Source of the DNA: Lactobacillus sp. ESL0791 | GTDB lineage: Bacteria > Bacillota > Bacilli > Lactobacillales > Lactobacillaceae | Direction of reading: 5' to 3' | NCBI RefSeq assembly: GCF_029433255.1 | Contig: NZ_JAQTHU010000001.1 | Location: 496,001 to 560,000, forward strand | DNA: 64,000 nucleotides | In this document: piece by piece, positions 8,296 through 50,040 of the stretch | How positions within the stretch are numbered: position 1 is the stretch's first letter | Layout of the letters: every line of letters starts with the position of its first letter | Notes under the pieces: model-generated | What the model was told of the DNA's origin: nothing | Database searches by the model: none | Seen by the model: only the letters and a program-made list of their open reading frames with translations | Made by a program: the position numbers and the translations under genes

Positions 8296-8317
8296 ACTTG
8301 CTAACGTAATAAACAAA

Positions 8318-8476
8318 TAAACTGTTAGGTGAGATTCCTACGTGAACACACGCTATCGCCCAGAAACATCCAGAGATGCCAACGGGTCAAGTAGTTGCCG
8401 TCGATCTAAGGCGGCATCCAGATAGCTAGCATGTGCTTACGTCACGTAGAGTTAAAGCTGAACGACGAGTATCCAA
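8318..8476 (+). promoter_or_regulatory. M-box (ykoK leader) Mg2+ riboswitch
   Basis: The leader matches the M-box consensus in order: GTTAGGTGAGATTCCTA, ACACACGCTATCGCCCAGAAA, GAGATGCCAACGGGTCAA, a variable arm, TTACGTCAC and GTTAAAGCTGAACGA. It is followed by an intrinsic terminator and a Mg2+ P-type ATPase gene, the expected context. High Mg2+ should favour the terminator and low Mg2+ should permit readthrough. Confidence 0.94.
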
Positions 8477-8491
8477 AAGTACCTTGTTTGG

Positions 8492-8527: not shown

Positions 8528-8565
8528 AGTTTGTTTGTGTTTTTTAAAGAAAAGGAGTGGGAAGG

Positions 8566-27547: not shown

Positions 27548-27883
27548 ATGGCTGAAAAAACAATAATGCTTAATTGTAGTGCGGGAATGAGTACATCACT
27601 TTTGGTAAGTAAGATGCAAAAGGCTGCTGAAGATGAAGGAGCTGACTATAAGATTTTTGCTTGTCCTGCAGCAGACGCTTCTCAGCATATTGAACAGGAA
27701 GAAATTGACTGCGTTCTTTTAGGGCCGCAAGTTAGTTACATGAAAGGCGACTTTGAAAATAAAGTAAAAGGCGCTGGTAAAGACGGTAAGGATATTCCGT
27801 TGGCAGTCATTAATATGCAAGATTACGGCATGATGAAGGGCGACAAGGTCCTTAAGCAAGCTGAAGATCTGATGAACGGCTAA
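27548..27883 (+). CDS. PTS lactose/cellobiose-family EIIB
   Basis: This 111-aa EIIB receives phosphate on Cys10 (MLNCSAGMSTSLL) and donates it to the incoming sugar on the EIIC. The P-loop-like CSAGMSTS is diagnostic. AGGAGG lies upstream of the ATG. An EIIA follows after 19 bp, but no EIIC is adjacent; four EIICs of the matching family lie within the next 17 kb, none with its own EIIB. This protein probably serves several of them. Confidence 0.94.
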   Translation: MAEKTIMLNCSAGMSTSLLVSKMQKAAEDEGADYKIFACPAADASQHIEQEEIDCVLLGPQVSYMKGDFENKVKGAGKDGKDIPLAVINMQDYGMMKGDKVLKQAEDLMNG

Positions 27884-27902
27884 TTTGTAAGAGAGAAATT
27901 TT

Positions 27903-28283
27903 ATGGCAGACGAAAAAAAGACAGATAAAAAAGAAAAGACGCCTGAAGAGCAAGAAGAAGCTACTTTAATGGCCGCGATGGGCTTGATTGCTAATGGTGG
28001 AAATGCTAAAAGTTTAGCATTTGAAGCGATTAGATTAGCTAAAAAGGGTGATATTGAAGGCGCGCGTGCCAAATTAAAGGAGTCCGATGCTTCTTTGCTT
28101 GAGGCGCATAATTCACAAACTGGAATGCTGACTGAAGAAGCGCAGGGCCACCACATGAATGTTACCCTGCTTGTAGTGCACTCACAGGATCACTTGATGA
28201 ATGCAATTACGTTTAGGGATTTAGCTGGTGAGATGGTTGATTTGTATGAAAAATTATACCAATCTGGCAGTTTGAAGAAATAA
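27903..28283 (+). CDS. PTS lactose/cellobiose-family EIIA
   Basis: This 126-aa trimeric-type EIIA has its active His in LVVHSQDHLMNA (His93), and the family helices AFEAIRLAKKGDIEGA and AHNSQTGMLTEEA. An extra acidic/lysine-rich N-terminal tail of about 20 residues precedes the domain. It is co-transcribed with EIIB and followed by a terminator, so EIIB-EIIA is a compact two-gene unit. It is the only EIIA of this family in the window. Confidence 0.94.
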   Translation: MADEKKTDKKEKTPEEQEEATLMAAMGLIANGGNAKSLAFEAIRLAKKGDIEGARAKLKESDASLLEAHNSQTGMLTEEAQGHHMNVTLLVVHSQDHLMNAITFRDLAGEMVDLYEKLYQSGSLKK

Positions 28284-28385: not shown

Positions 28386-29294
28386 ATGACATGGGGAACA
28401 ATTGCAACGTGGCGCATGGCTGCTGAAGGCATTAATGAAGCTAGTAAATTGCTGAAGGGTAAAGGCACAGCAGACGATGCAGTAGAAAAATTAGTTAAGA
28501 CGGTTGAAGCCAATCCGCTCTATAAGTCAGTCGGCTATGGCGGCTTGCCGAACGAAGAAGGCGTGGTGCAGATGGACGCAGCGTTTATGGACGGCGACAC
28601 GATGGCTCAAGGCGCGGTAGCCGCAATTGAAAATGTCTTGCACGCAGTTTCGGTGGCCCGACTGCTCAGTCATCAGCATTATAATAGTTTTCGTGTTGGC
28701 GCTGGGGCAACGAAGTTCGCCCAATTAAGCGGCTGTGAAATGACCAATATGCTGACTGCAAAAGCTAAAACGGAGTGGCAGGAGAAGCTGCAAAAAGAAA
28801 AAAACGAAAAGATGTCTTCTTATAATGGTCATGATACTGTCGGGGCGATTACGCTTGATCAGCAGGGCTCGATGGCCGCAGCGACCTCGACTTCCGGTTT
28901 ATTTATGAAAAAGGACGGCCGTATTGGCGACTCACCTTTGTCTGGATCAGGTCTTTATGTGGACAGCGAAGTAGGCGGAGCTGCTGCAACCGGCTTAGGC
29001 GAAGATATTATGAAGGGCTGTTTATCGTATGAAATAGTACGGAAAATGGCTGAAGGATTATCGCCGCAAGCGGCGTGTGACCAAACGGTTTATCCTTTTG
29101 TGCACAAACTGAAGAAGCGCTATGGTCGAGTAGGCGAAATTTCTTTAATTGCTTTGAACAAGCAGGGACAGTGGGGAATTGCAACTAACGTTGAATTTAC
29201 TTTCTGTGTTGCAACTAGTAATGAGGAAGAAAAGATTTTTATGGCTAATCCTGGAGTTGATGATACAACTGTGATTTCTACGGTAAGGCAATAA
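28386..29294 (+). CDS. Glycosylasparaginase (N4-GlcNAc-asparaginase) family
   Basis: This 302-aa Ntn-hydrolase is of the asparaginase-2 superfamily. It is expected to self-cleave before Thr151 in NGHDTVGAI, giving alpha and beta subunits. The GHDTVG junction, AAATSTSGLFMK, and GSGLYVDSEVGGAAATGLGE fit the glycosylasparaginase branch, which splits GlcNAc-Asn into an aminosugar and aspartate, better than plain isoaspartyl peptidase. There is no signal peptide, so it acts in the cytoplasm on imported or internal substrate. It follows the EIIB-EIIA unit and a terminator. Its neighbours suggest a role in glycoasparagine or amino-sugar use. Confidence 0.85.
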   Translation: MTWGTIATWRMAAEGINEASKLLKGKGTADDAVEKLVKTVEANPLYKSVGYGGLPNEEGVVQMDAAFMDGDTMAQGAVAAIENVLHAVSVARLLSHQHYNSFRVGAGATKFAQLSGCEMTNMLTAKAKTEWQEKLQKEKNEKMSSYNGHDTVGAITLDQQGSMAAATSTSGLFMKKDGRIGDSPLSGSGLYVDSEVGGAAATGLGEDIMKGCLSYEIVRKMAEGLSPQAACDQTVYPFVHKLKKRYGRVGEISLIALNKQGQWGIATNVEFTFCVATSNEEEKIFMANPGVDDTTVISTVRQ

Positions 29295-29371
29295 TCCACA
29301 ACAATTTTTTCTTGAAAGATGATAAATCTTTACGATTGAGACAACAACTTTTGATCAATTTGCTCTAATTA

Positions 29372-29411
29372 TTACAAAAAAGCTAAGTAGTATCGCTTAG
29401 CTTTTTTGTAA
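29372..29411. terminator. Bidirectional terminator
   Basis: TTACAAAAAAGCTAAG pairs with CTTAGCTTTTTTGTAA. It lies between converging genes: the asparaginase on + and the acetyltransferase on -. Confidence 0.92.
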
Positions 29412-29425
29412 TATTATTTATATAT

Positions 29426-30610
29426 TTAAAAATAATCAGTAATTTCAGGTGGGGTTTTTATTAATATTTGTGATAATTCCTGAATAGTTTCTTTTTTTAT
29501 TGAAGTTTTACCAACCTTTGAAATATTACTAATCTTTTCGCTCCCAAATAGCGCCTTGGTTAATTCTTGAATAGAAATTTTTTCAGTCAAATCTGTTGAA
29601 AGATCATTAAGCTTGTTAACTTTTACTGTTCCATTGGTAGAGGATATTTGCCAAATGCCAGAATTTTTTTCTAAATTTTTATCTTCAATTTTTAACCGAA
29701 TAGGGTTAAAGTTTTTCTTCTGGTATGGATATTTTAGTAAAAAGTTTTTAATATTAATAATTCTTACCATCATGTAAGGAACAATTTCAGCCTTTAAGTT
29801 GCTTGGATTAGCTAAAAAATCTCCGTGATAAACGGGATCCGGCGAATCCCAGACAAATTTAAAAACTGTATTTTTATGATTAAAGATAAATGCTAATAAA
29901 TTTTCAAAAGCAGAGTTAGTTAAATAAATAAATTCTTTAACAATTAACTTTGATGAGGTTATTTCATAAATTACGTAACCTTCTGCTTCTTTTTGTTCAT
30001 TAAAATAAAGACATACATACCAATTATTTTTAATGGTTAAATATTCCCACCACCATGATGCACGGATTAATCCGCCTTTTAGGCCTTTTTGAGCATATAA
30101 AGAATAAAAGTTAGAAACTTGTGACAAATAGTTTTTAAGATAGCCTCGTACTAGTTTCCCATTCTTATTATTGGGCTTAAAATTTGGAATATCTTTATTT
30201 GAAAGAGAATACTGAAGGTGATTAAATACTTGCTCATAACCAAGTCGTCGATAATATTCATATGAAAAGGGTGCAAGATATGACAAAGTTATGTTATTTT
30301 TTTCCATATCCTCTAATGCGTTTTGGAGCAATTTGGTTGCACTCCCCATGCCAGCATTCTCTGGTGCAGTTGCAACATCACCAATTCCATTCATTAAATA
30401 TTGCACGCCATGGAAATCAACTTTAAATGGAAGACTATATAACGCACTAATTAATTGCGATTTTTGCTTAATTCCATAAACTAGCCCATGTTTGCAACGA
30501 TCATAAAAAAAACTTTGTCGGATGGGTGTATCTTCTGCATTAAAAGCATAAAGGTAAAGATGATAAAACTTTTCAATATCGGTTGTAGTATTTAAACGGT
30601 AATTAGACAT
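29426..30610 (-). CDS. Eis-like GNAT acetyltransferase with C-terminal SCP2-type domain
   Basis: This 394-aa protein has the Eis-family layout: an N-terminal GNAT domain (MSNYRLNTTTDIEKFYHLYLYAF; acetyl-CoA loop near ATAPENAGMGSATKLL), a second GNAT-like region, and a C-terminal sterol-carrier-like domain (from about 300). Eis enzymes N-acetylate amines, including aminoglycosides and lysines. It is the last gene of the minus-strand operon GntR regulator - EIIC - this gene, 27 bp after the EIIC. That placement suggests a substrate brought in by the PTS, perhaps an amino sugar, but this is inference. Confidence 0.8.
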   Translation of the reverse strand: MSNYRLNTTTDIEKFYHLYLYAFNAEDTPIRQSFFYDRCKHGLVYGIKQKSQLISALYSLPFKVDFHGVQYLMNGIGDVATAPENAGMGSATKLLQNALEDMEKNNITLSYLAPFSYEYYRRLGYEQVFNHLQYSLSNKDIPNFKPNNKNGKLVRGYLKNYLSQVSNFYSLYAQKGLKGGLIRASWWWEYLTIKNNWYVCLYFNEQKEAEGYVIYEITSSKLIVKEFIYLTNSAFENLLAFIFNHKNTVFKFVWDSPDPVYHGDFLANPSNLKAEIVPYMMVRIINIKNFLLKYPYQKKNFNPIRLKIEDKNLEKNSGIWQISSTNGTVKVNKLNDLSTDLTEKISIQELTKALFGSEKISNISKVGKTSIKKETIQELSQILIKTPPEITDYF

Positions 30611-30637
30611 TTATAGTTTCTCCGAATAATAAAAACA

Positions 30638-31882
30638 TCATTTTTCTGGTGCAGTGCTTTCTTTTGCAATCATTTGTTTCTCTGCGACCTTAAAGAAAGG
30701 AAAATACATTACGCCAGCGATAACTAATTCTATTGCAGACCAAACTGCCGCACGCCAATCCCAGCCAGTTGCCATTAATGGGCCAAGAATTGGCGGCATT
30801 GTCCAAGGAACCATTGCTGATGGAGCGGAAACCCAACCAATGCTGATTACGATATATGAAAGGGTAGCTAGAACTAGCGGAACCAATATAAATGGAATCA
30901 TTGTAATTGGGTTCATAACAATTGGAAATCCAAAAATCACTGGTTCATTGATTTCAAAAAGTGCACTTGGGAAAGCCAAGCGGCCTAATTCTTTATAGGT
31001 TTTACTCTTACTGAATAACATTAGAATAACTAATGTGATAGTGGCACCAGTGCCGCCAACATTAACAAATAAACTAGAAAAACCGGATGATGTAATATAA
31101 GGCAGCGGTTGATGATGTGCGTATGCAATTCCATTTGCAGTTAAAAATTGAAGAAATATTGGATCAGCAATTCCTTCTAATGTCATATCACCATGAATAC
31201 CGCAAACCCATAATAGGCTGACAAGTAATGTGTAAACCAGGATTCCTGGTAATGAATTTAAGGCGAACAATAACGGGTGAAAGACAGCTTGAATTACCTG
31301 TTCAACATCAATTCCGAAAGGAACGCGAATTAACCAAAATAAAACTAAGATTACAAACCCAGGTAATAATGCAACAAAGGAATTAGAAACAGCGCTAGGA
31401 ACACCGTCAGGTAATTTAATTACAAAATTTCGCTTGATAAACCAATTAAAAATTGATACAGAAACAAATGCTGTGATAATTGCAGTAAATAGCCCGGATG
31501 AAGAAAAGTTGTTAACGTCAATTTGATATTTATTGTTAAAAGAAAGAATAATAAATGCCATAGTTGACAGTCCAGCACCCGTAATTGGATCAAGTTTCAA
31601 TTCTTTTGCGAGCTCATAGCCAATGCCAATAACGGCTATAAGAGAAATGATACCAAAAGATCCGTTAACTGCTACATTTATCCAATTTTGATATGGCTTG
31701 ATAAAATTTGACCATGCAGGGATTGGAATATTACCCAGTATCAAAAAAATACTCCCACTAATTATTGGTGGCAAAGTTAAAACTAGCCCATTACGAACAG
31801 AAACCAAATACTTGTTATTACCGATCTTAGTCATTGGTGGAATAACATATTTTTGTAGCCAATTCATAAATTTATTCATCAT
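30638..31882 (-). CDS. PTS lactose/cellobiose-family EIIC permease
   Basis: This 414-aa membrane permease resembles CelB/ChbC. It has about ten helices, the motif KLPDGVPSAVSNSFVALLPG, the CGIHGDMTLEGIADPIFL loop, and FEINEPVIFGFPIVMNP with the substrate-site Asn-Glu-Pro. AAGGAG precedes the ATG-ATG start. It lies between its GntR regulator and an acetyltransferase, and lacks its own EIIA/EIIB, so it probably uses the pair at 27.5-28.3 kb. The substrate is likely a beta-linked disaccharide or an amino-sugar derivative. Confidence 0.93.
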   Translation of the reverse strand: MMNKFMNWLQKYVIPPMTKIGNNKYLVSVRNGLVLTLPPIISGSIFLILGNIPIPAWSNFIKPYQNWINVAVNGSFGIISLIAVIGIGYELAKELKLDPITGAGLSTMAFIILSFNNKYQIDVNNFSSSGLFTAIITAFVSVSIFNWFIKRNFVIKLPDGVPSAVSNSFVALLPGFVILVLFWLIRVPFGIDVEQVIQAVFHPLLFALNSLPGILVYTLLVSLLWVCGIHGDMTLEGIADPIFLQFLTANGIAYAHHQPLPYITSSGFSSLFVNVGGTGATITLVILMLFSKSKTYKELGRLAFPSALFEINEPVIFGFPIVMNPITMIPFILVPLVLATLSYIVISIGWVSAPSAMVPWTMPPILGPLMATGWDWRAAVWSAIELVIAGVMYFPFFKVAEKQMIAKESTAPEK

Positions 31883-31933
31883 AATATAATTCTCCTTACT
31901 TTCCTACAAAAATAATTTTAAAAACTAGTACGG

Positions 31934-32644
31934 TTAATTGTTTAAACCAATATTTTTTGTATGATAATATAAAATTAGATCATCATCGGCAAAAAAGGTT
32001 CTTGAAAAGTTGAATACGACACCGCCTGATAAATAATTAATTGCATCTAGGTATAAAACTTTTTCATTTTTGTCCTTTTTTAATAAATTGGTGTAGTACT
32101 CACTTACATTTCCGATTTGAATGTAGTCTTCAGAAGTTTCACCAACAATTTTGTATGTATCATACAAGAAATTAAAGACTGAACCGTAAACACTTTTTTC
32201 TGTTAATAATGGAACAACGCTGCGTGGAAAGTAGGATTCCTCTAGGTCATATAATTGACCTTTGAAATACCGCAAGCGAATTAATCTGTATATTTCAGTT
32301 CCTTCGTCAATATTGCCACGTTGTGCTAATTCATTATTTGCATGAATAATATCAAATTTAATAACTTTTGATTTTAATGCATTTTCCGAATAATCGTCAT
32401 TCTTTTCAAAAATAAGTGATAAGTTCAAAACTTTTTTTGATTTTAACGGACGCTTAATCACATAATAACCACTTCCTCGTACTCTTTTAATCATTCCATG
32501 AGTAAAAACAATATCTAATGCTTTACGCACTGTATGACGACTTACGTGATATTTTTCTCCTAATTCCTTTTCGGTAGGTAATTTATCAGTGTATTTTTCG
32601 TCTAAAATGTTTTTGATAATACTTTCAGCAATTTTTTGGTACAT
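31934..32644 (-). CDS. GntR-family regulator (HutC/UTRA type)
   Basis: This 236-aa regulator has an N-terminal winged helix (residues 1-65: LPTEKELGEKYHVSRHTVRKALD) and a C-terminal UTRA ligand-binding domain (LRYFKGQLYDLEESYFPRSVVP). It heads the minus-strand operon with EIIC and the acetyltransferase and faces a divergent MupG-family gene. Two ATTTGTA-type inverted repeats in the shared promoter region are the likely operators. The ligand is probably the phosphorylated PTS sugar. Confidence 0.92.
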   Translation of the reverse strand: MYQKIAESIIKNILDEKYTDKLPTEKELGEKYHVSRHTVRKALDIVFTHGMIKRVRGSGYYVIKRPLKSKKVLNLSLIFEKNDDYSENALKSKVIKFDIIHANNELAQRGNIDEGTEIYRLIRLRYFKGQLYDLEESYFPRSVVPLLTEKSVYGSVFNFLYDTYKIVGETSEDYIQIGNVSEYYTNLLKKDKNEKVLYLDAINYLSGGVVFNFSRTFFADDDLILYYHTKNIGLNN

Positions 32645-32676
32645 CTTGGGCCCATCCTTTTAGTAAAACGTTTATT

Positions 32677-32725
32677 ATTTGTACCTACAAATAATATTAA
32701 TCCATATAAATTTAAAATGCAATAA
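32677..32725 (-). promoter_or_regulatory. Promoter and operator 1 of the GntR-EIIC-acetyltransferase operon
   Basis: On the minus strand TTGCAT and TAATAT are spaced 17 bp apart. They are followed at once by the inverted repeat ATTTGTAccTACAAAT (32677-32692), two perfect 7-bp arms, placed over the expected transcription start. Confidence 0.8.
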
Positions 32726-32814
32726 AGCGTTTGCCTTTTTTTGACTAAAATTGGCCTAATAAATAGCTTGATTAAATATTCTTGGGAATTCTTTTATAGC
32801 ATAATTATTCGTGG

Positions 32815-32838
32815 TATTATAAATTTGTAGGTACTAAT
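32815..32838 (+). promoter_or_regulatory. Operator 2 and -10 of the divergent mupG-like gene
   Basis: A -10 TATTAT (32815-32820) is followed by ATTTGTAggTACtAAT (32823-32838), which matches operator 1 except for one arm base. The arrangement relative to the -10 is the same as on the opposite strand. Confidence 0.78.
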
Positions 32839-32860
32839 TATTTTGAAAAAGAGAGAAAAC

Positions 32861-33967
32861 ATGAGAGAACTAGGAATATCCATTTATCCAGATCAGAGTG
32901 ATTTCGAGCAAGACCAAAAGTATTTAACTTTAGCTAACAAATATGGTTACAAACGCGTTTTTACGTCGCTTTTGCAGTTAGTTGGCAGCAATGGCGAAAA
33001 TTTACTGGAAAGATTTAAAGAAGACATCAATTATGCCAATATGTTAGGTTTTAAGACCATTGTTGACATTAATCCTAAATTATTTAAAGAACTGAAAATC
33101 AAGTATGATGATCTTAGCTTTTTTGCTGATTTAAAAGTCTGGGGACTGCGTCTAGATGAAGGTTTTAGCGGGATGGAAGAAGCTGCAATGACGCACAATC
33201 CATATGGGTTAAAAATTGAATTGAATATGAGCAGCGGGACAAATTATTTGGATAGCATCATGGCCTTTTCGCCAAATATTGATAATTTGATAGGCTGTCA
33301 CAATTTTTATCCACAAGAATTTACCGGCTTAGCAGAGAACTACTTTTTTGAATATTCACAAAAATACCGCAAGTATGGCTTGCATACCGCTGCATTTATC
33401 ACCGCTAAGGACGCACCTCTTGGTCCGTGGCCTGTTCATGAAGGTCTGCCGACGATGGAAAGTGACCGCAAGCGAAATATTTTTAGTCAAGTGACGCATT
33501 TGCGGTTAAGTAAGATGATTGATGACGTGATTATCGGTAATGCGTTTGCAAGTGAAACGGAACTTGCTGCAGCTGCAGAGGCTTTTAATAGTTCTTATCC
33601 AGTATTAGGAATTAATTTTGCACAAGAAATAACGGACTTAGAGCAGACGATTTGCCTGAAAGAGCCACACCTTTATCGCGGGGATGCCTCGGAATATTTA
33701 CTGCGTGATACTATACCGCGTGTAACTTATGCTGATAAAGAAATTCCAGTCCGTAAGAGCGCTGTTTCCACTTTTCAGCGCGGCGATGTTGTCATAGTTA
33801 ATGAGGAATATCCCCGTTACAAAGGCGAGATGCAGATTGTGTTAAAGCCAATTCCTAACGATGGTCGGCGCAATCTGGTCGGTAAAATTCGACAGGATGA
33901 TCTGGACTTGCTGACTTTAATTAAGCCTTGGTCCACGTTTATTCTGAAAGAAAATAAAATTAAATAA
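32861..33967 (+). CDS. MupG-family protein (DUF871), paralogue 1
   Basis: This 368-aa protein is of the MupG/DUF871 family: an N-terminal TIM-barrel (MRELGISIYPDQSDFE onward) and a C-terminal small beta domain (from about 250). S. aureus MupG is a 6-phospho-N-acetylmuramidase that splits MurNAc-6P-GlcNAc in the cytoplasm. Family signatures are the opening GISIYP, GLRLDEGFSG, NFYPQEFTGL and the middle GPWPVHEGLPTMESDR. The ATG at 32861 aligns with the family start; an in-frame TTG at 32843 does not. It is divergent from the GntR-EIIC-acetyltransferase operon and shares its operators, so it probably hydrolyses that EIIC's phosphorylated product. The exact glycoside is unknown. Confidence 0.85.
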   Translation: MRELGISIYPDQSDFEQDQKYLTLANKYGYKRVFTSLLQLVGSNGENLLERFKEDINYANMLGFKTIVDINPKLFKELKIKYDDLSFFADLKVWGLRLDEGFSGMEEAAMTHNPYGLKIELNMSSGTNYLDSIMAFSPNIDNLIGCHNFYPQEFTGLAENYFFEYSQKYRKYGLHTAAFITAKDAPLGPWPVHEGLPTMESDRKRNIFSQVTHLRLSKMIDDVIIGNAFASETELAAAAEAFNSSYPVLGINFAQEITDLEQTICLKEPHLYRGDASEYLLRDTIPRVTYADKEIPVRKSAVSTFQRGDVVIVNEEYPRYKGEMQIVLKPIPNDGRRNLVGKIRQDDLDLLTLIKPWSTFILKENKIK

Positions 33968-34183: not shown

Positions 34184-35140
34184 ATGAAAAGACTGTTAGA
34201 TTTAGCAGGACAAGATTTTATTAATTTATCTAAAATAGAATTAAAGCAGGCGATTTTGGCTTCTGAAGGACGGGTAATTTGCGCTGAAAATGTCCCTACG
34301 AGTCAGCCATATTTAGGGGCAACCGTGTCGAATGCGGAAATTGAAAAAGCTGCCGGAGCGGACTTATTATTGTTTAATGCATTCGATATTTTTAATCCCA
34401 AAATCCAAGGGATTCCGCAAGCTGAAAAGATTCAGACGCATCCCATTCAGTGGCTTAAAAAAGCATTGTGTCGGCCGATGGGACTTAACTTAGAGCCGAT
34501 TGATAATCAAGCATCAATGCTTGAAAGTCGTTTTGAAATTCCATTGGGCCGAAGATTATCGGTTGAAACTTTAAAACAAGCTGAAAAGTTAGGTTTTGAC
34601 TTTATTTGTCTCACAGGTAATCCTGCAACTGGTGTTTCTAATAAATCTATCTTAGCGAGCATCAAGTTATGCAAGGAAAACTATAACGGCTTGATTTTTG
34701 CAGGAAAAATGCATGGTGCCGGTATCTCTGAGGAGATTATGAATCTTGATATTGCTAAACAGTTTGTGAAAGCAGGCGTTGATGTCTTGCTTGTTCCAGC
34801 ACCGTATACTGTTCCAGGATTTATGGTCGAAGATTTACGAGAAATTGTTCGCTGGATCCGTAATTACAACCAAGGAAAAACGATTGAAGAAAAGGTCTTA
34901 GTGATGGCTGCTAACGGTACTAGTCAGGATTCAAGTGATCCGTTGACAATCAAAAAGATTGCCTTAACGGCTAAAGAATGCGGTGTGGACATTCAGCATA
35001 TCGGTGATTCGATGACCGGGATAGCTTTGCCACAAAATATTTATGCCTTAGGAGAAGCAATTCGGGGTTACCGACACCAGATAACGATGATGTCACGTTC
35101 AAATTATAGAGGGGTAGAGTATGATGGCGAAGAAAAGTAA
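34184..35140 (+). CDS. TIM-barrel protein of uncertain function (DUF7916 / 'PEP phosphonomutase-like')
   Basis: This 318-aa soluble protein has repeated beta-alpha units and resembles proteins usually labelled PEP phosphonomutase-like (DUF7916) found in PTS operons. Notable segments are ILASEGRVICAENV, GADLLLFNAFD, GFDFICLTGNPATGVSNKS, and GVDVLLVPAPYTVPGF. No classical phosphonomutase or isocitrate-lyase active site is evident. It overlaps the following EIIC by 20 bp, so the two are tightly linked. Its spacing downstream of the paired operators makes it the first gene of the operon. The likely role is in metabolism of the sugar phosphate delivered by that EIIC; the reaction is unknown. Confidence 0.65.
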   Translation: MKRLLDLAGQDFINLSKIELKQAILASEGRVICAENVPTSQPYLGATVSNAEIEKAAGADLLLFNAFDIFNPKIQGIPQAEKIQTHPIQWLKKALCRPMGLNLEPIDNQASMLESRFEIPLGRRLSVETLKQAEKLGFDFICLTGNPATGVSNKSILASIKLCKENYNGLIFAGKMHGAGISEEIMNLDIAKQFVKAGVDVLLVPAPYTVPGFMVEDLREIVRWIRNYNQGKTIEEKVLVMAANGTSQDSSDPLTIKKIALTAKECGVDIQHIGDSMTGIALPQNIYALGEAIRGYRHQITMMSRSNYRGVEYDGEEK

Positions 35141-36431
35141 ATTTTCAGATATTATAAACAACAAGATTATTCCTTTTGCTATGAAAATAGCTAATTTTAA
35201 ATTTGTCGGTGCCATTCGTGATGGCTTTGGGTCCATTCTACCGCTGATTTTAACAGGTTCCATTTTCTTAATAGTTATTAACTTCCCGGTATTACTGCAT
35301 TTCGATGGTACGATGGCTCATATTTTTGGGCCGGAATGGTCAGTTAAACTTAATTATGCAGTTAACGGAACGTTTAACTTGATGGGCCTAGTAGCGGCAA
35401 TGTCGATTGCGTATTTTTATGCGAAGTCTTGGAAGCTGGATCCAGTCGGCCCAGCGATCGCCAACTTGGCAGCTTTTGTGGTAACGATTCCTGCCACCAA
35501 GGATTTGGGCATCCCGTTATCTGAAACGGGCAGTTTAGGCTTATTCGTGGCGATGATTTTTGCTTACATTAGTGTTCGCATTTTCAAGTTTATGAGCGAT
35601 CACCACGTAGAAATTAAAATGCCAGAAACGGTTCCGCCCGCAGTTGCTAAATCCTTTTCTGCAATGTTTCCGACGATCGTTGTAATTATTATTACTTGGC
35701 TTGTCAGACTATTTGTTGAGGCCATGAACTGGGGCAGTATCAATGCCATCATTCAAAAGGTTCTGGGAATTCCGTTAATGAAGGTTACTGGCGGCTACTT
35801 GGGTGGCTTAGTCTATGTCTTGACCGTTCATTTGTTATGGTGTGTCGGAATTCACGGCGGCAATGTTGCCAACTCCATTATGAGCCCAATCTTTCTTGCA
35901 CAATTAGACCAAAACCGTAAGGCTTTTGCTGCACACATGGCTTTACCGAATATCATTACTGATTCATTTTGGGTATTTGTTCATATTGGCGGTTCTGGCA
36001 TGCTTTTAGCCCTTGCATTATTAATGCTATGGAAATCAAAGAGTGCCCAAAATAAAGAAGTTGCTAAATTAGGAATTGTGCCCACCATCTTCTCTGTCAA
36101 CGAACCAATTATGTTTGGTTTACCGGTGATAATGAATCCAATCATGCTGATTCCTTACGTGCTTTCCGTTGTAGTTGCCTTTACAATTGCCTACTTTTCA
36201 ATGAAATTCGGCATTGTTCCGAAAACTAATGGGATCGTTATTCACTGGACTACACCTATTTTTGTGAGCGGTTATCTGGCGACCGGTAGTTTCCGCGGTG
36301 TCTTATTACAGTTAGTTAATCTCTTAGTATCAATGGGCATTTACTTCCCGTTCTTTAGAAAATATGACCAGACGCTTTATGAACAAGAGCAGGCAAAAGC
36401 CATGGAAAAGGATATGGCGACAACTGAGTAG
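35121..36431 (+). CDS. PTS lactose/cellobiose-family EIIC permease
   Basis: This 436-aa permease has the same family marks as its paralogues: KMPETVPPAVAKSFSAMFP, CVGIHGGNVANSIMSPIFL and FSVNEPIMFGLPVIMNP. GAGGGG lies before the ATG-ATG start, inside the end of the upstream gene. No EIIA or EIIB is in the operon. The following gene is a frameshifted metallo-hydrolase and then a GntR regulator, so the full unit is TIM-barrel protein - EIIC - MBL hydrolase - GntR. The substrate is not evident. Confidence 0.93.
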   Translation: MMAKKSKFSDIINNKIIPFAMKIANFKFVGAIRDGFGSILPLILTGSIFLIVINFPVLLHFDGTMAHIFGPEWSVKLNYAVNGTFNLMGLVAAMSIAYFYAKSWKLDPVGPAIANLAAFVVTIPATKDLGIPLSETGSLGLFVAMIFAYISVRIFKFMSDHHVEIKMPETVPPAVAKSFSAMFPTIVVIIITWLVRLFVEAMNWGSINAIIQKVLGIPLMKVTGGYLGGLVYVLTVHLLWCVGIHGGNVANSIMSPIFLAQLDQNRKAFAAHMALPNIITDSFWVFVHIGGSGMLLALALLMLWKSKSAQNKEVAKLGIVPTIFSVNEPIMFGLPVIMNPIMLIPYVLSVVVAFTIAYFSMKFGIVPKTNGIVIHWTTPIFVSGYLATGSFRGVLLQLVNLLVSMGIYFPFFRKYDQTLYEQEQAKAMEKDMATTE

Positions 36432-36442
36432 GTTTTAAATAA

Positions 36443-37283
36443 ATGAAATTTAAGTATTTGGGTACAGGGGCAGCCGAGAGAGTTCCGGCAATATTTTGTA
36501 ATTGTTCGATCTGCAGAAATGCGCAGCTTAAAAAGGGACGTGAAATTAGAACCCAAGCACAAGCTGTGCTTGATGATGGTCAAATATTACTGGACTTTCC
36601 TGGTGATAGCTATTTACACAAATTGACTGAAGGAATTAATTTTAATGAAATTGAACATTTGCTGATCACGCATTGGCACTCTGACCATTTTTATGGTGAA
36701 GATCTTGCCTATCGCATGTCAGAATACGGGCAAAATCTTTCAAAGAAACTAACCATTTATGGAAGTGTCTTTGTTAAGCAGTTTTTTGACCGGGCTTTGA
36801 ATTTGGAAAAGATGAATGAACCAGACCGGCTTGAGTTTCAAGTGGTTAAGCCCTACCAGAAATTTTTAATTTCTCAATTATGAGGTTTACCCGCTTCCGG
36901 CTGTTCATGGGCATAATCAAGCTGATTGCTTAGTCTATGCAATTAAAGATATAATCTCTGCTAAGACAATTTTTTATGGTCATGATACGGGATATCCGAT
37001 GCAGGAAGTAATTAATTATTTAAAAAGTGAAAAGTTAAAATTTTCTTTAGTGTCAATGGACTGCACGGTTCAAGTTAGGCCAACAATCAAGGTTCATATG
37101 AATTGGTTTGAAGATCTGAAATTTAAAAGCGAATTGATCGAAAATAAGTTAGCAGATGAAAAAACGATTTTTGTTGCGAATCATTTCTCTCATAATGGTG
37201 GGAAAACTTATCAGGAAATGAGCGAATTAAGTTCGCGTTATCAGATAGTCACTTCTTATGATGGCTTGGAATTAAATTTTTGA
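36443..37283 (+). pseudogene. Frameshifted metallo-beta-lactamase-fold hydrolase (PhnP-like)
   Basis: The first frame (36443-36883, 146 aa) begins MKFKYLGTGAAERVPAIFCNC and has the zinc motif THWHSDHFYGED. It stops soon after KPYQKFLISQL. Shifting one base near 36872-36876 restores the family continuation EVYPLPAVHGHNQADCLVYA, FYGHDTGYP, and on to the zinc-ligand ANHFSHNGG and the end at 37283. The full protein would be about 280 aa, the usual length for PhnP-like phosphodiesterases. Either the gene is inactivated, two fragments are made, or the base is an assembly error. It follows EIIC by 12 bp in the same operon. Confidence 0.85.
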
Positions 37284-45547: not shown

Positions 45548-46588
45548 ATGTTAGGCTTTTCTGTATATCTTAACAGGACTTTGACAGCTGCAGATTATGA
45601 TTACCTGCTCATGATGCGTAATGCCGGATTTACAACTGTGTTTACGTCGCTTCACATTCCCGAAAACGATCCTAATTTAGTTCTGCAATATTTGGCGCAG
45701 TTAACCAAGTGGTGTAAGGAGCTCGATCTAGCAGTTGTGGCGGATGTGTCTGAAGCTGGATTGAATAATTTAGGTGTGGCTATTGAAAATTCAGAGCAAG
45801 TTGCATCCTTAGGATTAACGGGATTGCGCATTGATGCTGGGGTTGACTATCAAACTGTGGTGAAGCTATCGCGGATGATGCCGATTGCTTTGAATGCCAG
45901 CACGATTACTGAAGAAAATATTAATGCTTTGAAAACTTTTAATGCTGATTTTGCTAATCTTCAGGCTTGGCACAATTATTATCCTCGTCCTGAAACCGGC
46001 TTAGACGCTGCTTGGCTGAAGGACAAAAATGCTTGGCTTCATCATTTTGGATTGCAGACAATGGCTTTTATTGCAGGTGATGCTGAAAAACGGGGTCCAA
46101 TTTATGCGGGCCTGCCAACACTAGAAAAACATCGTTATTTCAATCCGCTAGCGGCAATGCTGGAACTAAAGGCTTGGGGCTGTGACCACGTATTTGTGGG
46201 AGATGGCGCGTTAACGAGTAAAGCAGCAGCTAATTTCACAGATTATCTTGAAAAGGGAGCGTTGACACTACATCTTGAAAACGATCTGCCGAAATTATCT
46301 GCCAATACCTGGCATAATCGACCGGATGTTGCTCGGGATGTGGTGCGACTTGAAGAGGGTCGAGCTAGACAGCTTTTTTCTACCATGCCGCAAGAAGACC
46401 CACAGCCGCGACCGCGGGGAACCGTGACTTGTGACAATAAAAAGTATTTACGTTATCAGGGTGAACTACAGATTGCCAAGTACGCTCTTCCTCCAGATGA
46501 AAAAGTCAATGTTATCGGTCATGTGGTTAAAAAAGATTTACCCCTGCTAGATTTCATTGACGCTGGAACAGAGGTGATTTTCAAGTAA
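45548..46588 (+). CDS. mupG: 6-phospho-N-acetylmuramidase MupG (DUF871)
   Basis: This 346-aa MupG-family protein has a TIM barrel (GFSVYLNRTLTAADYDYLL, TSLHIPEN, GLTGLRIDAGVDY, NYYPRPETGLD) and a C-terminal small domain (RGTVTCDNKKYLRYQGELQI). The family enzyme splits MurNAc-6P-GlcNAc after uptake. AAGGAGG lies just before the ATG. The following genes are murR, murP and murQ, the same gene set as the S. aureus mupG-murQ-murP-murR cluster, which makes this the functional MupG of the two in the window. Confidence 0.92.
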   Translation: MLGFSVYLNRTLTAADYDYLLMMRNAGFTTVFTSLHIPENDPNLVLQYLAQLTKWCKELDLAVVADVSEAGLNNLGVAIENSEQVASLGLTGLRIDAGVDYQTVVKLSRMMPIALNASTITEENINALKTFNADFANLQAWHNYYPRPETGLDAAWLKDKNAWLHHFGLQTMAFIAGDAEKRGPIYAGLPTLEKHRYFNPLAAMLELKAWGCDHVFVGDGALTSKAAANFTDYLEKGALTLHLENDLPKLSANTWHNRPDVARDVVRLEEGRARQLFSTMPQEDPQPRPRGTVTCDNKKYLRYQGELQIAKYALPPDEKVNVIGHVVKKDLPLLDFIDAGTEVIFK

Positions 46589-46694: not shown

Positions 46695-47558
46695 ATGGAT
46701 TTTAAAAATAGAGTTATTGCGGAAAAAAGTAGCTTAACTGCGGCTGAATTGAAGGTTGCAGATTACATCTTAAAAAATCCACGAGTTGCGATGGCTTCTA
46801 GTATTAGTCAATTGGCTGTCAGAGCTGGCGTAAGTGCTGCAACGGTCACACGGATGATTAAAAAACTTGATATTGATTCATATACGGCAATGAAAGTGAT
46901 GCTGTCTGGCGACTTAGCCAGTGAAGATAAGCACCTAGAAAGTCAACTTGATATTCGGGCGAATGAATCATTTACTTCGATTTGCAATAAACTGATTGAA
47001 AATGAGATGACGAATATCAAGCAAACAAAAGATCTGCTCAAGCATAAAAATTGCAATTTGGTCATTAACCGTTTGCTTGAAACTAGAACAATTTATGTTT
47101 TCGGAGTTGGGGCATCGGCGCTGGCTGCCCAAAATATTTATCAGAAGTGGTCAAGAATTGGTGCAAATGTAGTATTAGGACAAGATATTAATATTTTTCT
47201 TGCTCAGTTAATCAATGCTACTAAGGAAGATACATTGTGGCTGATTTCTAATTCGGGCGAAACACCAGAAGTTTTATACTTAGCAAATTATGCAAAAAAA
47301 AACAGTATTCTGACAGTTACTTTGACAAAATTTGGGCATAACAGCCTCTATAAATTAGCAGACCTTCCACTGACTACTTGCAAGCCGATTGAACCCGATG
47401 TTCGTGTTGGGGCGACAAACTCGATTACGGGTCAATTTTACGTAATTGATGTCCTGTTTTACTTGTATTTTAGTCGTGATTTTGACCGGTGCTATGAAGC
47501 AATTAAAAATTCACAATCATCGGTTAAAGACTATAAGGCACATTTTAAAAATAAATAA
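46695..47558 (+). CDS. murR: RpiR-family MurNAc regulator MurR
   Basis: This 287-aa regulator has an RpiR helix-turn-helix in the first 75 residues (MASSISQLAVRAGVSAATVTRMIKKL) and a SIS domain (IYVFGVGASALAAQNIYQKW; LISNSGETPEVLYLANYA) expected to bind MurNAc-6-phosphate. It lies between mupG and murP, and a near-palindrome sits 15 bp upstream of its start. In the family, MurR represses MurNAc uptake and cleavage genes until MurNAc-6P accumulates. Confidence 0.9.
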   Translation: MDFKNRVIAEKSSLTAAELKVADYILKNPRVAMASSISQLAVRAGVSAATVTRMIKKLDIDSYTAMKVMLSGDLASEDKHLESQLDIRANESFTSICNKLIENEMTNIKQTKDLLKHKNCNLVINRLLETRTIYVFGVGASALAAQNIYQKWSRIGANVVLGQDINIFLAQLINATKEDTLWLISNSGETPEVLYLANYAKKNSILTVTLTKFGHNSLYKLADLPLTTCKPIEPDVRVGATNSITGQFYVIDVLFYLYFSRDFDRCYEAIKNSQSSVKDYKAHFKNK

Positions 47559-47657: not shown

Positions 47658-49127
47658 ATGAGCGAAGATAAATACACTAAGTTGGGTGACAAAATTTATG
47701 CCCATATTGGTGGAATGGAAAATGTCCAATCATTATATCATTGTATGACAAGAATTCGAATTAAGATTAAGGACAATGACAAAGTTGATGTTGATGGCTT
47801 AAAGAAAATTGATGGCGTCCTTGGAGTTGTTGAGGGTGACACACTAGAAGTTGTTGTTGGCCCTGGCGTTAATACTAAAGTTGCAGCCTATATGGTAGAT
47901 TTAGCAGGCGTTAAAGAAAATGACGAGTTCCCAACTACGGTTAATCAAACAAGCTCTTATCAATCTGGAAAAGACGAAGTAACTGCAAAGGCTGACGAAG
48001 TTCATGCAGCTCATAAAGCAGCATTGAAAAAAACTTGGTGGCGTGCAGCCTTACAACATATTTCTGCAATTTTTGTTCCATTGATTCCAGCCTTTGTTGG
48101 TGCTGGTTTAATTTCCGGTGTTGCTGGCATTTTTCGGAATATGATGACTGCAAAAATGTTGCCGGTAAGCTGGGCATTAGCAATAAATGTTTTAGGCGTA
48201 ATTGCTAATGGAATGTACGGCTATTTAAACATTTTTGCAGGTATTAATGCAGCGAAAGAATTTGGTGCAACACCAGGTTTTGGTGGAATTATCGGTGGTA
48301 TTGTAATGTTCAACTTGGCCCCGCCTGCTACAATTCCTAATTTGTTCAGTGGTCAGCCGCTCGCACCAAATCAAGGTGGATTAATTGGTGTTTTGATTAG
48401 TGTATGGCTGCTATCATATGTAGAAAAATTCTTCCACAAACATATTCCAGACTCCATTGATATTATTTTTACGCCATTACTGACTGTCTTAATTATGGGA
48501 TTAGTGACACTCTTCCTGATCATGCCGTTTGCTGGTTGGGTATCAAATGGCTTAATCGGAGCAATCAACTGGATACTAAAAGTTGGTGGTGCATTTTCTG
48601 GCTTCATTTTAGGTGCAGCATTCTTACCAATGGTTATGTTTGGTTTGCACCAAATCCTGACACCTATTCATGTTCAAATGATTCAAAAGACAGGCAGCAC
48701 GCCTTTACTGCCAGTTTTGGCAATGGCAGGCGCCGGTCAAGTTGGAACAGCGATTGCACTTTGGGTTAAGTGCAGAAAGAACAAACATTTAACTAAAATG
48801 ATTAAAGGAGCTTTACCCGTTGGTTTCTTAGGTGTTGGTGAGCCGTTAATTTATGGTATTTCACTTCCTTTAGGACGTCCATTTATTACCGCATGTATTG
48901 GCGGTGGTATCGGCGGAGCTGTTATCGGTGCCTTGGGCGGCGTCGGTGCCTCAGCAATTGGTACTTCAGGTATTCCGCTAATTCCGTTGATTGTAAACGG
49001 AAGAGCTTGGGCATACTGTTTAGGTTTGCTTGCTGCATACGCTGGCGGTTTTGTAGTTACTTATTTCTTTGGCGTTCCAAAATCAGCAATGGTTGCCACT
49101 AATGAAGATGGTTCACCTGCTGAATAA
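47658..49127 (+). CDS. murP: PTS N-acetylmuramic acid EIIBC
   Basis: This 489-aa fused EIIB-EIIC of the glucose/sucrose superfamily has EIIB at 1-85 with phospho-Cys29 in LYHCMTRIRIK (His-Cys-Met variant) and EIIC from about 125 to 480 with ten helices, GVGEPLIYGISLPLGRPF and AGGFVVTYFFGVP. No EIIA domain is fused; a glucose-type EIIA elsewhere must supply phosphate. MurQ follows after 16 bp and MurR precedes, so the substrate is MurNAc or the MurNAc-GlcNAc disaccharide, delivered as the 6-phosphate. Confidence 0.93.
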   Translation: MSEDKYTKLGDKIYAHIGGMENVQSLYHCMTRIRIKIKDNDKVDVDGLKKIDGVLGVVEGDTLEVVVGPGVNTKVAAYMVDLAGVKENDEFPTTVNQTSSYQSGKDEVTAKADEVHAAHKAALKKTWWRAALQHISAIFVPLIPAFVGAGLISGVAGIFRNMMTAKMLPVSWALAINVLGVIANGMYGYLNIFAGINAAKEFGATPGFGGIIGGIVMFNLAPPATIPNLFSGQPLAPNQGGLIGVLISVWLLSYVEKFFHKHIPDSIDIIFTPLLTVLIMGLVTLFLIMPFAGWVSNGLIGAINWILKVGGAFSGFILGAAFLPMVMFGLHQILTPIHVQMIQKTGSTPLLPVLAMAGAGQVGTAIALWVKCRKNKHLTKMIKGALPVGFLGVGEPLIYGISLPLGRPFITACIGGGIGGAVIGALGGVGASAIGTSGIPLIPLIVNGRAWAYCLGLLAAYAGGFVVTYFFGVPKSAMVATNEDGSPAE

Positions 49128-49143
49128 GCTATAGAAGGTAATT

Positions 49144-50040
49144 ATGGAAATTAAAAATTTAGTAACCGAAACCCGCAATCCCAAGACAATGCACATTGAC
49201 ACTATGTCGACTCTTGAAATGGTTAAGACAATTAATGCCGAAGACCAAAAAGTGGCACAGGCAGTTGGCAGTCAGGATGAGCAAATTGCCAGGGTAATTG
49301 ACCGGGCCGCAAAGCTTTACGCGCAGGGCGGCCGTCTAATTTACGTGGGTGCTGGCACCAGCGGCCGTTTAGGTGTGCTTGATGCGGCGGAATTAGTTCC
49401 AACGTATGGCATTAAGCCTGAACGGGCGGTCGGCTTGATTGCCGGCGGTAAAAGTGCCATGTATCGTGCAGTTGAAGGCGCGGAAGATTCACCCGAACTT
49501 GGGGAAAAGGATCTGCGTGAACTCAATTTAAACGCGCAAGACACGGTTTTAGGTCTGGCTGCTAGTGGTCGCACTCCATATGTTATTGGTTGTCTTGATT
49601 ATGCAAAACAGGTGGGCGCCTTTCCGGTTGCTATTGCCTGTGTTGCAGATTCGGAAATCGGCAAGCATGCGAAGGTGGCAGTTGAAGCCGTGGTTGGTCC
49701 CGAGGTTGTCACCGGTTCTACGCGGATGAAGTCGGGAACTGCCCAAAAAATGATTTTAAACATGATTTCAACCGGAGTGATGATTAGGCAAGGCAAAGTT
49801 TATCAAAACGTGATGATTGACGTGCAGCCAACTAATGCCAAGCTGGTTGATCGCGCCTGCCGCATTATCAGCGCTACAACTGGTGCAAGTAAAGAAAAAG
49901 CACTGGCAGCATTGAAAGACACGGCTAACGATGTTGCTTTGGCGATTGTCATGATCAAAACTGGTAAGGACAGGGACGCTGCGAAGCAATTGCTTCAGGT
50001 TAACCATGGCCGTGTTGGGCAAGTTTTAGATAGAAAATAA
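49144..50040 (+). CDS. murQ: N-acetylmuramic acid 6-phosphate etherase
   Basis: This 298-aa SIS-domain lyase removes D-lactate from MurNAc-6P to give GlcNAc-6P, which then joins the GlcNAc pathway. Signatures are ETRNPKTMHIDTMSTLEMV, YVGAGTSGRLGVLDAAELVPTYG, ACVADSEIGKHAKVAVE and GPEVVTGSTRMKSGTAQKMILNM. AGAAGG precedes the ATG. It is the last gene of the mur cluster, with a terminator 4 bp after the stop. It confirms that the cluster is for MurNAc recycling or scavenging. Confidence 0.97.
   Translation: MEIKNLVTETRNPKTMHIDTMSTLEMVKTINAEDQKVAQAVGSQDEQIARVIDRAAKLYAQGGRLIYVGAGTSGRLGVLDAAELVPTYGIKPERAVGLIAGGKSAMYRAVEGAEDSPELGEKDLRELNLNAQDTVLGLAASGRTPYVIGCLDYAKQVGAFPVAIACVADSEIGKHAKVAVEAVVGPEVVTGSTRMKSGTAQKMILNMISTGVMIRQGKVYQNVMIDVQPTNAKLVDRACRIISATTGASKEKALAALKDTANDVALAIVMIKTGKDRDAAKQLLQVNHGRVGQVLDRK

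Follow-up and report, generated by a model that had tools for sequence, protein, structure and literature searches.

The 64,000-nucleotide stretch of Lactobacillus sp. ESL0791 analysed here (contig NZ_JAQTHU010000001.1, positions 496,001 to 560,000; hereafter the window) belongs to a genome of 2.43 Mb and carries a divergent locus that combines a sugar transporter, an acetyltransferase and a glycosidase. On the reverse strand, an operon starts with the gene for a ChbR-like GntR/UTRA repressor (31934..32644; identified by Pfam). It continues after 51 bp with an EIIC component of the lactose/cellobiose family of the phosphotransferase system (PTS), which we call PTS_A (30638..31882; 414 aa; PTS_EIIC, TIGR00410), and ends after another 27 bp with an Eis-like GNAT acetyltransferase of 394 aa (29426..30610; Pfam Acetyltransf_9, Acetyltransf_17, and SCP2_2). 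Divergent from this operon, on the forward strand, lies a gene of glycoside hydrolase family 170 (GH170) with the domains MupG_N and MupG_C, encoding MupG1, a ChbE-type 6-phospho-glycosidase (32861..33967). Its longest open reading frame (ORF) begins at a TTG at 32843, and the true start is likely the ATG at 32861, since the alignments of many homologues begin only at residue 6 or 7. The intergenic stretch holds two operators, TTTGTACCTACAAA (32678..32691) ahead of the GntR-EIIC-Eis operon and TTTGTAGGTACTAA (32824..32837) 23 bp ahead of the GH170 ATG. A preliminary description had recognized a PTS permease gene co-operonic with an Eis-like acetyltransferase gene and divergent from a MupG paralogue, an arrangement that is confirmed here with the addition of the GntR/UTRA gene, which had gone unnamed. 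The operators that it took to be common to the operon and the GH170 gene are likewise present and are backed by the regulon of relatives. Taken together, the operators, the conserved linkage and the co-occurrence of the genes indicate that EIIC, the Eis-like enzyme and GH170 very probably form one pathway.

The operator at 32678 is the sole perfect TTTGTANNTACAAA genome-wide. The strongest evidence for a regulon comes from Lactiplantibacillus, where seven genomes with the EIIC carry its gene away from the GH170-Eis pair (84 kb apart in genome G071, on other contigs elsewhere). The motif TTTGTWGGTACMAA occurs 16 times in these seven whole genomes, against a single occurrence of the reversed control pattern. 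Seven of the 16 sites lie before EIIC, seven before GH170-Eis and two elsewhere, namely in G071 between IIB-IIA and a GntR gene (40% identity to the window GntR) and in G300 inside an unrelated ORF. This placement points to one operator common to EIIC, GH170, and Eis, which are joined in G071 by IIB, IIA, and the repressor. When up to one mismatch to TTTGTWGGTACAAA is permitted, sites are found in Lactiplantibacillus upstream of EIIC in all seven genomes and upstream of GH170-Eis at 15 of the 16 loci examined. The background at the same stringency is 12 of 1666 other genes, some of which flank those very sites divergently, and, for 250-base stretches drawn at random from such loci with the true sites left in, 41 of 4000. 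An operator that differs by one base stands ahead of the GntR gene in three chb-like clusters (L131, L132, L137), whose regulators are 50-51% identical to the window GntR, as is expected of a ChbR-type repressor with the operator of a chb-type GH170 system. In the PDB, the kin of the window GntR are YydK, YvoA, and DasR.

The linkage of transporter, acetyltransferase and glycosidase exceeds chance. For this survey, Eis-like, GH170, and EIIC proteins were searched over the same 397 genomes of the family and their gene coordinates were compared; a search of genome contigs for related loci found nothing, and the surveys rest on the protein searches. Close Eis relatives comprise 88 matches with E <= 1e-70, the window's own included, whereas the comparison set consists of 62 weaker listed matches, a part of all weaker ones. 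The matches to MupG1-type GH170 reach E 1.2e-105, which makes the GH170 linkage counts lower bounds. A MupG1-type GH170 gene lies within 1.5 kb of at least 39 of the 88 close Eis genes (at least 38 on the same strand, at least 36 with a gap of 10-80 bp), with 21 of these in Lactiplantibacillus, 13 in Companilactobacillus and five in three other genera. The window-type EIIC lies within the same distance of 13 of the 88, in four genera, and one or the other partner accompanies at least 52 of the 88, in eight genera, compared with 1 of the 62 weaker matches. The EIIC itself is found in 31 of the 397 genomes (E <= 1e-130), and 28 of these 31 also have a close Eis, compared with 82 of all 397 genomes (p = 2.7e-18 by Fisher test, kinship ignored); a MupG1-type GH170 is present in 27 of the 31 among the matches listed. 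The window alone of the 88 has GH170, EIIC, and Eis mutually within 12 kb (again among the matches listed), and in genome G320 a GH170-Eis pair stands inside a chb-like operon with a different EIIC. In a tree of Eis proteins, every GH170- or EIIC-linked gene falls into one group of 63 sequences, whose support of 86/74 is not strong, and 4 of the 22 sequences outside the group have other PTS or GH1 neighbours. The tree over-represents linked genes, because its loci were picked for GH170 already adjoining Eis.

Of the two GH170 genes in the genome, the second, MupG2 (45548..46588, forward strand), lies outside the system and serves as a contrast case. It is found 11.6 kb from the MupG1 locus, adjoining genes for an RpiR regulator (46695-47558), a MurP-like protein (47658-49127) and MurQ (49144-50040). 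By its gene neighbourhood, MupG2 has the setting of a canonical MupG 6-phospho-N-acetylmuramidase linked to MurP and MurQ, and MupG1, which shares about 26-29% identity with it, does not. MupG1 is instead 61-66% identical to the GH170 of the three chb-like clusters mentioned above, in which IIA-IIB is divergent to GntR-EIIC-139-aa protein-GH170 (Pfam identity was checked for IIA and IIB in L131 and for the 139-aa DUF3284 protein in L041). This is the layout reported for the L. paracasei chb genes (PMC12791066), and MupG1 is classed as ChbE-type by comparison with clusters of this published layout. According to the same report, L. paracasei loses growth on N,N'-diacetylchitobiose when chbE or chbC is mutated, and deacetylated chitobiose is unused by strain BL23 (PMC12791066). 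The three genomes in which the chb-like layout was observed have only weak Eis matches of about 1e-33 and are absent from the EIIC list. In the characterized GH170 substrate (that of MupG) and in the genetically inferred one (that of ChbE), the sugar that the cut removes bears, as reported, an N-acetyl group. Given the 61-66% identity to the chb-like enzymes against 26% to MupG2, the chemistry of diacetylchitobiose fits MupG1 better than that of muropeptides. The genome contains nagA, and a profile search detected no PF01522 polysaccharide deacetylase in it.

The window EIIC falls in the lactose/cellobiose class and outside the MurP class, and with 32-33% identity to the chb-like EIICs and clade-specific residues of its own it is set apart from the ChbC type. 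Two of these residues are acidic: D232 and E310 are each found in 23 of 23 members of the EIIC clade (the window and 22 orthologs), whereas these positions are acidic in 2 and 0 of 47 other EIICs, respectively. In an alignment to Bacillus cereus ChbC, whose sugar contacts we take to be His250 and Glu334, D232 lies two residues after the presumed sugar-contacting His and E310 three before the presumed Glu. Such additional carboxylates could accommodate an ammonium group on the substrate, which is only a hint.

The Eis-like protein has the three-domain architecture GNAT-GNAT-SCP2, and its kin in the PDB are 2hv2, 2i00, and 3n7z. Its C-terminal Phe394 is conserved in 84 of 84 aligned sequences and the column of Tyr125 is Tyr in 70 of 84, so that both the C-terminal aromatic carboxylate and the GNAT tyrosine, presumably catalytic as in Mycobacterium tuberculosis Eis, are present. 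Mycobacterial Eis acetylates aminoglycosides and lysines. Eis-like matches occur in 134 of the 397 family genomes (E <= 1e-30) and in 96 of 295 genomes of the order (E <= 1e-40), and those that are named are annotated only as acetyltransferases or hypothetical proteins. Outside the family, homologues with 32-36% identity end operons at fifteen loci whose genes encode IIB, IIA, EIIC, and a DUF3284-type protein together with GH1 or other proteins and, in some cases, a further EIIC. More distant Eis clades within the family come after GH1 (two loci) or a different EIIC (two loci), and the pairing with PTS operons may therefore have arisen more than once. A reading as defence genes was rejected, the Eis-like protein and MupG1, the two proteins tried, having no PADLOC match.

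The GntR-EIIC-Eis stretch has a G+C content of 32%, compared with 39% for the window and for the GH170 gene. At two loci of the same genus, relatives of MupG1 (72-74% identity) occupy the same GlmU-...-Prs stretch, with no Eis beside them, whereas the nearest kin of the operon genes among the genomes searched belong to another genus (85% for EIIC in G186, 54% for Eis in G320). The operon was probably acquired beside a resident chbE-like gene.

From these data we infer a substrate, an order of steps and a chemistry. Both divergent units, GntR-EIIC-Eis and GH170, would be under the control of a ChbR-type GntR repressor. The EIIC, together with IIA and IIB components (probably those encoded at 27548-28283), would import and 6-phosphorylate a chitobiose-type disaccharide with at least one glucosamine, which the Eis-like enzyme would then N-acetylate with acetyl-CoA as donor. 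The ChbE-type GH170 would cut the resulting chitobiose phosphate containing N-acetylglucosamine 6-phosphate (GlcNAc-6P), and would depend on the added acetyl group to do so, yielding GlcNAc-6P and N-acetylglucosamine (GlcNAc) for NagA. The order of import with phosphorylation, acetylation and cleavage is suggested by precedents for acetylation that enables cutting and by the N-acetyl group on GH170 substrates. We hold the chances of this whole model, which rests on sequence comparison, to be about even. The preliminary description had proposed a pathway for an amino disaccharide, and gave as example a muropeptide sugar that is taken up, acetylated and only then cleaved; the single pathway and the sequence of steps remain the best reading, with a presumed sugar, and the muropeptide is not supported in view of the ChbE type of MupG1, the separate MupG2/MurP-like/MurQ set and the failure to find a PF01522 deacetylase in the genome. 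In its broadest form, with an EIIC dedicated to glucosamine disaccharides, an Eis-like enzyme whose substrate is the 6-phosphorylated disaccharide and a GH170 that requires the N-acetyl group, the model would mean that the widespread Eis-like proteins of the Lactobacillales first served to N-acetylate sugars, and would make the acetylation of drugs and proteins a later development elsewhere, a proposal that is tentative and that we would not back at even odds. The conserved regulon, which connects Eis-like proteins with a sugar transporter and a glycosidase of a new family, gives them a concrete, testable substrate class. If the model is true, it would add a further function for GH170 and explain a possible use by some lactobacilli of chitosan-like sugars that L. 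paracasei BL23 does not use.

Several observations weigh against this model. Neither partner lies within 1.5 kb of 36 of the 88 close Eis genes (GH170 among the matches listed), and 14 of the 21 Lactiplantibacillus with GH170-Eis are absent from the EIIC list. Loose operator matches in the genome are at background, with 14 sites for the pattern and 10 for the reversed pattern at one mismatch and with 12 window sites against 9.4 expected at two mismatches, so that the case depends on the GTAGGTAC core that the two operators have in common and on what is seen in relatives. Among the relatives, three further chb-like clusters (L041, L129, L130) have sites with 2-3 mismatches only, none of the six Companilactobacillus EIIC loci has an upstream operator at up to one mismatch, and the same holds for all EIIC-Eis pairs outside the window. 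The charge argument is weakened by the loss in the EIIC clade of a conserved acid (D290 in B. cereus, here S270) and by 30 clade-specific positions in all. Outside the family, 21 Eis loci were obtained, 12 of them with a PTS EIIC or GH1 gene within 1.5 kb, and in a wider fetch 15 of 20 loci have a DUF3284-type protein (one such protein was checked by Pfam) and a cellobiose-class EIIC before Eis, often with GH1; these are 15 of 16 loci of family f3 and 0 of 4 of f2. In E. faecalis, a cluster with a DUF3284 protein is said to serve cellodextrins (as cited in PMC12791066), and the partner sugar of such operons need therefore not carry an amine. If that cluster is of the same operon type, Eis accompanies amine-free sugars, and a role of the acetyltransferase outside catabolism gains weight.

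Such a role has its precedent in E. coli lacA: the Eis-like enzyme could mark for expulsion those amino-sugar analogues that enter by leakage through the PTS and are toxic or resist hydrolysis, with no catabolic step. Across the Lactobacillales, Eis homologues stand behind PTS operons of several kinds, with GH170 or with GH1, as would be expected of a general clean-up enzyme. However, the concentration of 14 of the 16 operator sites at EIIC and GH170-Eis in the seven Lactiplantibacillus genomes, together with at least 36 of 88 GH170-Eis pairs at gaps of 10-80 bp, suggests a core step, and we consider the clean-up role unlikely, although it deserves to be taken seriously. The same gene set and regulon would also accommodate an acetylation after cleavage, of free glucosamine (GlcN) or glucosamine 6-phosphate (GlcN-6P) released by GH170, for cell-wall synthesis or against loss. 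GlcN-6P enters glycolysis via NagB without acetylation, and acetylating it would thus waste acetyl-CoA. The Rhizomucor miehei enzyme RmNag is reported to take free GlcN as well (PMC4680927), which lends this order some plausibility; the N-acetyl group that both the characterized and the genetically inferred GH170 substrates carry on the sugar cut off speaks against it, and we regard it as rather improbable.

More doubtful still is a peptidoglycan version of the pathway, in which a de-N-acetylated sugar (GlcN next to N-acetylmuramic acid, MurNAc) is imported, acetylated and split. MupG belongs to GH170, and peptidoglycan fragments are a substrate of a glucosaminide N-acetyltransferase of Clostridium acetobutylicum (as cited in PMC4680927), but MupG1 is ChbE-type, a separate MupG/MurP-like/MurQ set is at hand, and the EIIC is of the lactose/cellobiose rather than the MurP class. 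Nor was a PF01522 deacetylase found in the genome, though sugars from other bacteria could still supply such a substrate. An acetyl target unrelated to sugars (for example a polyamine, an aminoglycoside or the lysines of proteins), with the linkage as regulatory hitch-hiking, would be in keeping with the many Eis relatives without such neighbours and with the activities of mycobacterial Eis. It would leave the pairing with GH170 or EIIC in eight genera and the operator common to separate loci unaccounted for, and is very improbable.

Beyond the end of the operon, genes for a IIB (27548..27883, PF02302) and a IIA (27903..28283, PF02255) of the lactose/cellobiose PTS class stand on the forward strand and are the probable partners of the EIIC; an operator scan detected no operator upstream of the IIB gene. 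They are followed by a neighbouring gene, also on the forward strand, for a glycosylasparaginase-like Ntn hydrolase (28386..29294; Pfam Asparaginase_2), whose PDB matches score 193 bits for glycosylasparaginases and 120 bits for isoaspartyl peptidases and whose position after IIB-IIA hints at N-glycan use. An N-glycan reading of the locus, with chitobiosyl-Asn as substrate and this enzyme as partner, was not adopted, because acetylation of the Asn amine should block a glycosylasparaginase-like enzyme and because the gene is near Eis in only two Companilactobacillus loci among the neighbourhoods printed. A terminator-like hairpin of 19 pairs (29370..29413, listed on the forward strand only) lies between the operon and this convergent gene; it is not significant alone, since such sites are no commoner than in shuffled sequence (3 found, 3.1 expected). 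On the other side of the locus, a DUF7916 gene overlaps another EIIC gene (34184-36431), as is also seen at two other loci, and in two genomes DUF7916 (43-44% identity) directly follows EIIC-Eis. A hydrolase gene could well occupy that position, and DUF7916 may thus be another glycosidase; its structure model is confident, with a predicted local distance difference test (pLDDT) score of 90.7. After DUF7916-EIIC, a PhnP-like gene of the metallo-beta-lactamase fold is present as two short ORFs (36443-36883 and 36999-37283) and is perhaps broken. Elsewhere in the window, an M-box magnesium riboswitch (8314-8477) lies upstream of an ORF at 8557.

The preliminary description knew of no described pathway with this set of genes. 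This holds for the full set, as GH170, PTS and an Eis-like acetyltransferase were not found described as a single pathway in the open-licence literature searched, but there are close precedents. The chb system of L. paracasei BL23 (ChbR, ChbABC, ChbD, ChbE), as reported, resembles the window system in its GntR-family repressor, its ChbE-type GH170 and its cellobiose-class PTS (PMC12791066), and in three clusters arranged like it the operator differs from that of the window by a single base. The window system differs in that its EIIC belongs to another subfamily, that no counterpart of the DUF3284 protein ChbD was found by Pfam scan among 20 neighbouring proteins, and that it contains the Eis-like acetyltransferase. 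The chb system of E. coli, with the deacetylase ChbG and the GH4 enzyme ChbF, likewise imports chitobiose via the PTS and adjusts its N-acetylation before cutting (PMC9402603, PMC12791066). There an acetyl group is removed before cleavage by GH4, whereas the window system would add one before cleavage by GH170. A precedent for such an addition is the glucosamine/glucosaminide N-acetyltransferase of C. acetobutylicum (Reith and Mayer 2011), which we take to be the enzyme named GlmA. It is described as acetylating glucosaminides for cutting by a glycosidase, on peptidoglycan fragments and with a beta-N-acetylglucosaminidase (as cited in PMC4680927); a like function is proposed for the window enzyme, whose tie to a glycosidase is one of gene linkage. 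Similarly, the acetyltransferase half of R. miehei RmNag is reported to be needed for cutting (GlcN)2, although RmNag is a single fungal fusion protein of GH3 and tandem GNAT domains with an unphosphorylated substrate (PMC4680927). The MupG/MurP recycling system of S. aureus shares with the window system the combination of GH170 and PTS, but its reported substrate is MurNAc-6P-GlcNAc (PMC6262408), and what resembles it in the window is the separate MupG2/MurP-like/MurQ set. The parts of the system described here are of known kinds, and their combination is new.

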